Positions 30,008 through 32,143 of a stretch of DNA of 52,976 bases are shown here, in pieces. The stretch is taken from the NCBI GenBank assembly GCA_029781595.1, contig JAKOWJ010000198.1, positions 1-52,976 of the forward strand. The letters are read 5' to 3'. Each line of letters begins with the position of its first letter. Position 1 is the stretch's first letter. Position numbers and translations under genes: made by a program. The notes below the pieces were generated by a model, which worked only from the letters and a program-made list of their open reading frames with translations, was not told where the DNA came from and did not search any database. This DNA comes from Pseudomonadota bacterium. Its GTDB lineage: Bacteria > Pseudomonadota > Gammaproteobacteria > Burkholderiales > Usitatibacteraceae.

Positions 30008-32143
30008 ATGGCCGACCCGCGCCCTCCCCGCGAGGCGCGCCCCGCCGCGCCATTCGCGCCGTCCGGAGGCGACCTCGTCGCCGGCCCCGCCATGCGCGAC
30101 AAGCTCGCGAAGCTGGGGATCCACGCGCGCTTCGACCTGGTGCTGCACCTGCCCCTGCGCTACGAGGACGAGACGCGCCTCACGCCGCTCGCCGAGGCCG
30201 GGACGGGGGAGCCCGTGCTGGTGGAAGCCGAGGTCGTCGAGAGCGAGGTGAAGTACCGGCCGCGCCGCACGCTGGTCGTGAAGTGCTCCGACGGCCGGTC
30301 CGAGCTGTGGCTGCGCTTCCTCAATTTCTATCCCAGCCAGGTGAAGCAGATGGCGCCCGGCCGGCGCCTTCGCCTCTTCGGCGAGGTGCGCCCCGGCTTC
30401 TTCGGCGCGGAGATGGTGCACCCGAAGGTGCGCGTGGTGGACGAGGGCGCGCCGCTCGCCGCCTCCCTCACGCCCGTCTACCCCACGACGGCGGGGCTCT
30501 CGCAGGCGAACCTGCGCGGCTTCATCGAGCACGCGCTCGACACCCTCCTCATGGACGACACGCTCGAGCCCGAGCTGCTGGCGCGCCTGGCGCTGCGGGG
30601 CTTTCGCGAAAGCGTGCTGATGCTGCACCGCCCGCCGCCGGACGTGGACGGCGCGAGCCTCGCGGACCGCACGCACCCGGCGTGGCGGCGCCTGAAGTTC
30701 GACGAGCTCCTCGCGCAGCAGCTCGCCATGCGCATCGCCTACCGCGAGCGGCGGGGACGCTCGGCGCCGCGCATGCCCGACCGGCACGCGCTCACCAACG
30801 CCCTGGTGAAGTCGCTGCCCTTCCCGCTCACGCGCGCGCAGAAGAAGGCCTGGGCCACGATCGCCCACGACCTGGGCCAGGCCCACCCCATGCGCCGGCT
30901 GCTGCAGGGCGACGTGGGCAGCGGCAAGACGCTGGTGGCCGCGCTCGCCGCCCTCCAGGCCATCGAGAACGACTGGCAGGTGGCGCTCATGGCGCCCACC
31001 GAGATCCTGGCCGAGCAGCATTACCTCAAGCTCGAGCACTGGCTCGCGCCGCTGGGCGTGAAGGTGAGCTGGCTCGCCGGGAGCCTGAAGGCGCGCGCCA
31101 AGAAGGCGGCGGCCGAGGCCATCGCCCGGGGCGAGACGCAGCTCGCCATCGGCACGCACGCGCTCTTCCAGGGCGAGGTGGCGTTCGCGCGGCTGGGACT
31201 GGCGATCGTCGACGAGCAGCACCGCTTCGGCGTGGCGCAGCGCCTGGCCCTGGCGAGCAAGGGCGGGCCGGAGTCCGGTCCCGCGGGCGCCGAGCCGCAC
31301 CAGCTCATGATGAGCGCCACGCCCATCCCCCGCACCCTGTCCATGAGTTACTACGCCGACCTGGACGTCTCCGTGATCGACGAGCTGCCGCCCGGGCGCA
31401 CGCCCGTGGTGACCAAGCTCGTGGACGAGTCGCGGCGCGAGGAGGTGATCCGCCGCATCCGCGAGAGCTGCGCCGAGGGCACGCAGGCCTACTGGGTGTG
31501 CCCGCTCATCGAGGAGCGGGGGTCCCCATCTCGATGGGGCGATGCCGAGAATGCGCTGCAGCTCAAGACCGCGCTCGAGACCTTCGAGACGCTGAAGGCC
31601 ACCTTCCCCGACCTCGCTGTGGGCCTGGTGCACGGGCGCCTGAAGCCCGAGGAGAAGGCGAAGGTCATGGAGGACTTCAAGGCGCGCCGCGTGCAGCTGC
31701 TGGTGGCCACCACGGTGATCGAGGTGGGCGTGGACGTGCCCAACGCGACGCTCATGGTGATCGAGCACGCCGAGCGCATGGGCCTCGCGCAGCTGCACCA
31801 GCTGCGCGGCCGGGTGGGCCGCGGCTCGCAGAAGAGCCTCGCGATCCTCCTGTATCATCGGCCCCTGTCGGACCTGGCGCGCGAGAGGCTGCGCACGATC
31901 TACGAGTCGACGGACGGCTTCGAGATCGCGCGCCGCGACCTGCAGCTTCGCGGCCCGGGCGAGTACCTCGGGGCGCGGCAGAGCGGGGCGCCGCTGCTGC
32001 GCTTCGCCGACCTGGAGCGTGACACGGACCTCATCGAGCTCGCGCGCGACGTCGCCGACGCCATGATCTCTGAGCGCTCGCACGCGGTGGAAAGGCACCT
32101 GGATCGCTGGCTCGGCCACCGGCAGTTCTACCTCAAGGCATGA
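30008..32143 (+). CDS. recG: ATP-dependent DNA helicase RecG, with a small palindromic insertion
   Basis: 711 residues. The N-terminal wedge/OB domain is followed by superfamily 2 helicase motifs: FPLTRAQKKAW, Walker A GDVGSGKTLVAA, MAPTEILAEQH, DEQHRFGV, MSATPIPRTL, TTVIEVGVDVPNA and QLRGRVGRG. It reverses stalled forks and unwinds branched DNA. Compared with E. coli RecG, ten extra residues (504-513, RGSPSRWGDA) sit between LIEE and the following helix (ENALQLKTAL), encoded by a palindrome-bearing 30-base segment. The insertion is in the linker between helicase lobes' motifs and leaves all motifs intact. It overlaps ubiC by four bases. Confidence 0.95.
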   Translation: MADPRPPREARPAAPFAPSGGDLVAGPAMRDKLAKLGIHARFDLVLHLPLRYEDETRLTPLAEAGTGEPVLVEAEVVESEVKYRPRRTLVVKCSDGRSELWLRFLNFYPSQVKQMAPGRRLRLFGEVRPGFFGAEMVHPKVRVVDEGAPLAASLTPVYPTTAGLSQANLRGFIEHALDTLLMDDTLEPELLARLALRGFRESVLMLHRPPPDVDGASLADRTHPAWRRLKFDELLAQQLAMRIAYRERRGRSAPRMPDRHALTNALVKSLPFPLTRAQKKAWATIAHDLGQAHPMRRLLQGDVGSGKTLVAALAALQAIENDWQVALMAPTEILAEQHYLKLEHWLAPLGVKVSWLAGSLKARAKKAAAEAIARGETQLAIGTHALFQGEVAFARLGLAIVDEQHRFGVAQRLALASKGGPESGPAGAEPHQLMMSATPIPRTLSMSYYADLDVSVIDELPPGRTPVVTKLVDESRREEVIRRIRESCAEGTQAYWVCPLIEERGSPSRWGDAENALQLKTALETFETLKATFPDLAVGLVHGRLKPEEKAKVMEDFKARRVQLLVATTVIEVGVDVPNATLMVIEHAERMGLAQLHQLRGRVGRGSQKSLAILLYHRPLSDLARERLRTIYESTDGFEIARRDLQLRGPGEYLGARQSGAPLLRFADLERDTDLIELARDVADAMISERSHAVERHLDRWLGHRQFYLKA
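31517..31546 (+). repeat. 30-base in-frame insertion with palindrome inside recG
   Basis: Segment coding for ten residues absent from typical RecG. It contains CCCCAT (31524-31529), loop CTCG, ATGGGG (31534-31539). Its codons CCA, TCT, CGA and GAT are uncommon in this gene, unlike those on either side. Confidence 0.6.

Follow-up and report, generated by a model that had tools for sequence, protein, structure and literature searches.

A short palindromic repeat with in-frame copies in recG and other genes of uncultured Burkholderiales

A segment of 30 nucleotides lying in frame within recG very probably belongs to a family of short, non-autonomous palindromic repeats dispersed among a small number of related uncultured Burkholderiales. 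The gene was studied in the window, i.e. the whole analysed stretch of 52,976 nucleotides, which is contig C244 of genome G000 (3.79 Mb in 374 contigs, 88% complete). Copies of the repeat are dispersed, its sites in recG and leuS are empty in relatives, the reading frames stay open and the stem pairing is maintained by compensatory changes. In the window, the features are the following.

30008 to 32143, plus strand: the host gene recG, in which the reading frame stays open over 711 amino acids
31517 to 31546, plus strand: the in-frame insert of 30 nt encoding residues 504-513 (RGSPSRWGDA), a gap in relatives and in solved chains
31517 to 31540, plus strand: the repeat core CGGGGGTCCCCATCTCGATGGGGC, one of four exact pattern matches in G000
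31524 to 31530, plus strand: the left arm of the hairpin, CCCCATC, pairing with 31533-31539, with compensatory changes across copies
31533 to 31539, plus strand: the right arm of the hairpin, GATGGGG, with pairing maintained across copies by compensatory changes

In the protein, the ten residues are flanked by LIEE and ENALQLK and fall between the Pfam matches DEAD (275-444) and Helicase_C (520-605), presumably at the surface, where the added loop is probably neutral. The original prediction described a 6-bp stem with a 4-base loop, and these are present as stated (CCCCAT/ATGGGG around CTCG), with an alternative reading of 7 bp and a 2-base loop. Its remark on unusual codons was likewise borne out, as 6 of the 10 codons in the insert end in G or C against 683 of 711 across recG, an equally low value being reached in 6 of the gene's 702 ten-codon windows (those overlapping the insert included). 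The window holds 66 perfect hairpins of at least 6 bp with a 4-base loop, three of them in recG, and since hairpins of this size are so common in a GC-rich window, the palindrome alone proves nothing; it is the dispersed copies, and not the hairpin itself, that exceed chance.

RecG sequences covering the insert site were obtained from all but one of the 27 other family genomes, and 25 of these 26 are without the ten residues, which agrees with the earlier claim that typical RecG does not have them. Among the genus relatives the site is empty in the six closest, while the seventh, which is also the one exception in the family (G003, L011), has a different and longer loop, EREARPGEPEN (reported sequence EREARPGEPENALQ). 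The solved RecG chains 9wm0 and 1gm5, which we take to be those of E. coli and Thermotoga, also do not have the residues. A different longer loop is similarly found in the LeuS of G026 (L144), at the site where leuS of G000 carries its own insert, and these longer loops may be remnants of earlier insertions that have decayed, or just places where extra length is tolerated. They can also be turned into an argument for ordinary variation in RecG loop length, with a palindrome of local origin (e.g. from template switching) and chance matches elsewhere: the unrelated, 8-residue longer loop of G003 lies at the same place within a common ER...EN-ALQ frame, the LeuS loop of G026 repeats the situation, and suitable hairpins abound in the window. 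We nevertheless regard this explanation as very improbable, because the core has four exact matches in G000, about ten unrelated genes of G000 and related genomes carry in-frame copies, and near the site the recG of the window is not closer than usual to that of G003. Recombination of recG from a G003-like donor was rejected, as sliding identity does not rise near the site.

The genome search proposed together with the prediction returned further copies in G000, including a second in-frame one in leuS. The leuS insert, AGCGGGGGTCCCCGTCCCGACGGGGCG or a near shift of it, is absent from all five genus relatives that have this stretch, with exactly nine residues (27 nt) missing. Of the net 30 nt in recG, we assign 27 nt to the element and the remaining codon to its 3' side; the ends of the element are ambiguous by 2-3 nt in this gene. 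The recG comparison had also been proposed as a way to find a target-site duplication, and none was seen at the recG copy. In a third locus of G000 (C172), the element lies within a 90-nt stretch whose flanks are adjacent in G005, and the linker of HemF has 29 amino acids against 14-16 in the eight relatives that were caught by the motif among 22 other loci. Relative to solved structures, the residues added at the element number 10 in RecG, 10 in Bcp, 6 in PpsA, 9 in PheT and 18 in HemF; for LeuS the difference extends over the entire loop, which makes the comparison less clear, and for asnB no PDB entry was returned at the threshold applied. A recurrence of the same ten residues in distant RecG proteins together with a lack of other copies, the outcome that would have spoken against a mobile element, is not what was found.

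The core of the repeat follows the pattern CGGGGGTCCCC-NNC-NN-GNN-GGGGC. For counting, CGGGGGTCCCC, eight free bases and GGGGC were searched with at most one mismatch in 28 family genomes, which gave 29 sites in eight genomes against nine sites for the reversed control pattern, so that an individual site, particularly one with a mismatch, may have arisen by chance. Several dispersed copies of the palindrome per genome were found in G000 (five sites), G001 (six), G007 (six) and G027 (eight), and genus relatives are among the carriers. The exact copies in G000 are those of C244 (recG), C37 (leuS), C172 and C55, and C2 has one mismatch. In a DNA search of the same genome the second site matched at 23 of 24 bases, and a relaxed pattern revealed a third in which both changes are compensatory. 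The match of the repeat model to the recG copy in the window has a value of 2e-9, the recG copy itself being part of the model.

Pairing is conserved across the family of copies. Three standard pairs of the inner stem are formed at 25 of the 29 sites, where about 0.06 would be expected per site at an assumed GC content of 69%. Over 22 of the 29 sites, the covariation score was 0.323 compared with 0.125 in shuffles, none of 500 shuffles scoring as high, and the helix had 13 cells changed on both sides against a shuffle mean of 4.8, slid registers coming nowhere near; related copies can, however, beat shuffles without selection, and correction of the palindrome may also match the arms. Two sites, in C51 of G001 and C420 of G007, have the same imperfectly paired centre and were set aside as looking like chance.

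Taken alone, the element measures about 25-37 nt, and about 65 nt where it forms an arm of a second repeat, CTCCCTCTCCC...GAGGG. This second repeat, CTCCC(C)TCTCCC...GAGGG, hosts many of the copies in G001, G007 and G027 (with AAC..GTT or similar in the stem), and a version of it without the element adjoins one copy. As a repeat in its own right, it reads CTCCC(C)TCTCCC...GAGGGG(C/T)CGGGGGTGAGGGT (L102, L110, L113 and others), and in G001 and G007 one of its arms is the element, a shorter form being found in G027. All six reading frames are free of stops in the recG copy and in both consensus forms. Weak model hits with an AGC...GCT motif in G001, G005 and G006 (L105, L094 and L085) have one conserved context in common and were therefore discarded as probably not mobile copies. 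Their common hairpin context (GGGTTATCCAAGACCGTAGGCGCCC...GAAGCCTACGCAG) in three genomes is perhaps an undescribed structured RNA or leader, and a search of Rfam returned no family for these hairpins.

The 29 sites were sorted into ten in frame within protein genes, one probably so, two in structured RNA genes, three at gene ends, eleven others and two that look like chance. The in-frame hosts, the names of which rest on Pfam or PDB support, are recG and leuS in G000, bcp and pheT in G001, ppsA in G007, and hemF, asnB, an eutA-like gene, an exosortase gene and a gene with the Pfam domains HHH_6 and OB, which we take to be dnaE2-like, in G027. The asnB and exosortase copies are each located between two Pfam domains, the dnaE2-like copy inside one. 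A methyltransferase gene of G027 (C505) is only a probable eleventh case, because the side before the element is not covered by a Pfam domain. In-frame copies were sought through open frames, so that a frameshifted copy inside a gene may be missed. The protein search with hemF also met the element at two other sites of G027, one in C99 with the orientation of its host gene and one in C500 on the opposite strand. The copies in structured RNAs are at tRNA-Phe of G000 and in the RNase P RNA of G025 (C331, L084:1504-1540), where an unpaired stretch is 34 nt longer than in the Rfam consensus. At gene ends, copies accompanied by duplications occur at dxr (G007), a ferredoxin gene (G000) and a crp-like gene (G005), the three names being supported by Pfam. 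The remaining eleven sites are intergenic or without assignment, such as that in C172 of G000 between EAL and MFS open reading frames.

A narrower pattern of the repeat was found in one of 300 genomes of the order, namely G000 alone, in a sample from which other members of the genus, some of them carriers, were excluded. An exact scan of genome contigs, from which G000 itself and close genomes may be missing, returned 25 stretches. Twelve of these, with 13 sites, are from four Burkholderiales metagenome-assembled genomes (GZL_ISSM_2_bin.18 with five sites, TGS_PRO46 with four, FeB_7, titled Betaproteobacteria bacterium in its record, with three, and ACE_PRO65 with one). The other 13 stretches are from other phyla with one site per record; the inner stem pairs at 3 of these 13 sites compared with 12 of the 13 Burkholderiales sites, and they were rejected as true copies since they look like chance. 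The scan gave no Rickettsia record among its matches, and a search of viral contigs gave no match to the repeat. That G000 is fragmented and incomplete, and that all four named carriers in the scan are metagenome-assembled, might invite the explanation that the repeat is an artefact of assembly or binning. This is hardly credible given that eight genomes have copies, which at several loci are in frame between homologous flanks, and that one copy is in G022, a single-contig genome. With one representative per species and many of these fragmented, assembly errors at single sites are possible, and polymorphism within species was not seen.

Duplicated sequence beside some of the copies offers a view of how they may have arisen. 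In a flank-duplication test of 31 copies, weak model hits included, a long direct target duplication clearly abuts the 5' side at tRNA-Phe (59), ferredoxin (49) and dxr (47), and weakly at the crp-like copy (23); in mismatched-pair controls the 95% value was 23, the 99% value 27 and the maximum 69. Matches at C124 (28) and C15 (18) are due to a second repeat adjoining them, and those at C172 (24), C29 (24) and C232a (27) are at or over the 95% control value without clear meaning. At four loci, i.e. C2:22343 (L107) and C55 (L089) in G000, dxr (L118) in G007 and C17 (L080) in G005, the element separates a displaced gene end, which abuts its 5' side within 1 nt, from the intact gene, whose own end is on its 3' side. 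The tRNA-Phe copies are alike over some 29 nt. For dxr, ferredoxin and the crp-like gene, displaced and functional copies differ in 20 codons, 18 of them synonymously, although only about one in four random changes is expected to be synonymous. It therefore seems that selection acted on the two copies as they diverged. Duplication at insertion does not account for this; import of the gene end from a relative, or a chimeric assembly, would.

It is accordingly possible, albeit doubtful, that the repeat spreads at hairpins by templated repair or by import of DNA from related species, without a transposase. The abutting duplications, clear at three copies and weak at the crp-like fourth, the largely synonymous differences, which look as though one gene end were derived from a different lineage, and the variable lengths of the inserts are all consistent with such a route. 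On the other hand, the insertions in recG and leuS are clean, without duplication, and the duplications elsewhere may be later events or products of chimeric assembly. A more specific and rather unlikely proposal is that the element moves by joining to the orthologous gene segment of another lineage: hairpin-guided insertion would spare the target by supplying a replacement gene end, and the in-frame insertions in recG and leuS would be another outcome. Of the findings as a whole, it is the gene-end duplications that could be new.

Movement by a RAYT (Y1) transposase, as for the GTAG- or CGTC-tagged REPs, was considered as well. The size and hairpin of the element are REP-like, Y1 transposases are found in five of eight genus genomes (one of them in G000), and REPs within genes are known (PMC3733652, section 15). 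Yet the six Y1 loci in the eight genus genomes, which are incomplete assemblies, are flanked by other hairpins and none by the element, and the sole element-like match with at most three mismatches within about 1.5 kb of a Y1 gene (L192) has an unpaired centre. Moreover, no Y1 match was obtained in G001 despite its six pattern sites (of which one or more look like chance), and by eye the element ends, certain to within a few bases, have no GTAG or CGTC tag. We consequently judge this origin to be unlikely, and to the extent that its ends are readable, the repeat is not a tagged REP. The only Y1 gene found in G000 (C227) is preceded by a different hairpin, AAATCGGGGACGCTCCCCGATTT, in two copies (L193:1309-1367), which is perhaps the REP of that gene.

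Among known systems, the likeness to small mobile palindromic elements that insert in frame, as first suggested from the recG segment, is supported by the dispersed copies and the empty sites. Rickettsia palindromic elements (RPEs; Ogata et al. 2000, 2002, as cited in PMC2229807 and PMC10969869) are described as in-frame insertions in Rickettsia genes that also occur in tmRNA and RNase P RNA (PMC2229807), and their frequency in Rickettsia is termed unusually high in a review (PMC10969869). According to these descriptions, they resemble the present repeat in being short palindromes found in frame in conserved genes, between genes and in structured RNAs including RNase P RNA, with reading frames that stay open through the repeat. 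They differ in length, 105-146 bp against a core of 25-37 nt, and the present repeat is GC-rich and in uncultured Burkholderiales. Intragenic REPs, reported in PMC3733652 (section 15) from several bacteria, many of them in DNA synthesis and repair genes, dnaE2 included, are similar as palindromes of 20-40 bp, some tagged ones lying in DNA-repair, dnaE2 and tRNA-synthetase reading frames, whereas the present repeat shows no such tag and was not found beside Y1 genes. Small MITEs with open frames fused to genes, such as the 107-bp Correia element, are alike in this respect, but have terminal inverted repeats and a terminal TA in the account given in PMC2229807, neither of which was seen here; duplications are absent at recG and leuS, long and variable at three copies and weak at a fourth. 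Palindromes of Wolbachia and Methanocaldococcus (Ogata 2005, Suyama 2005) are, judging by title alone, also coding palindromic repeats, from other lineages. By description, the repeat thus appears to work in the manner of RPEs or intragenic REPs, and no paper naming or describing it was found in the open-licence literature searched.

Most likely, the repeat is a non-autonomous selfish element whose in-frame copies persist in tolerant loops. It occupies protein genes, structured RNA genes and intergenic space alike; as its six frames are without stops, insertions of a multiple of three bases in tolerant loops would survive, and those of other lengths would be lost by selection. Its mobility, whether driven by a trans-acting enzyme or by templated repair, is our inference, and the analysis tied no mobilising enzyme to it.

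Palindromes written into working proteins are best known from Rickettsia. The present repeat, with empty sites in close relatives, is found in GC-rich genomes of about 3-5 Mb, in contrast to a reduced intracellular genome. It thereby provides another system for asking how such elements move and whether the loops that they add matter, and the gene-end duplications represent a concrete and testable trace of the mechanism.
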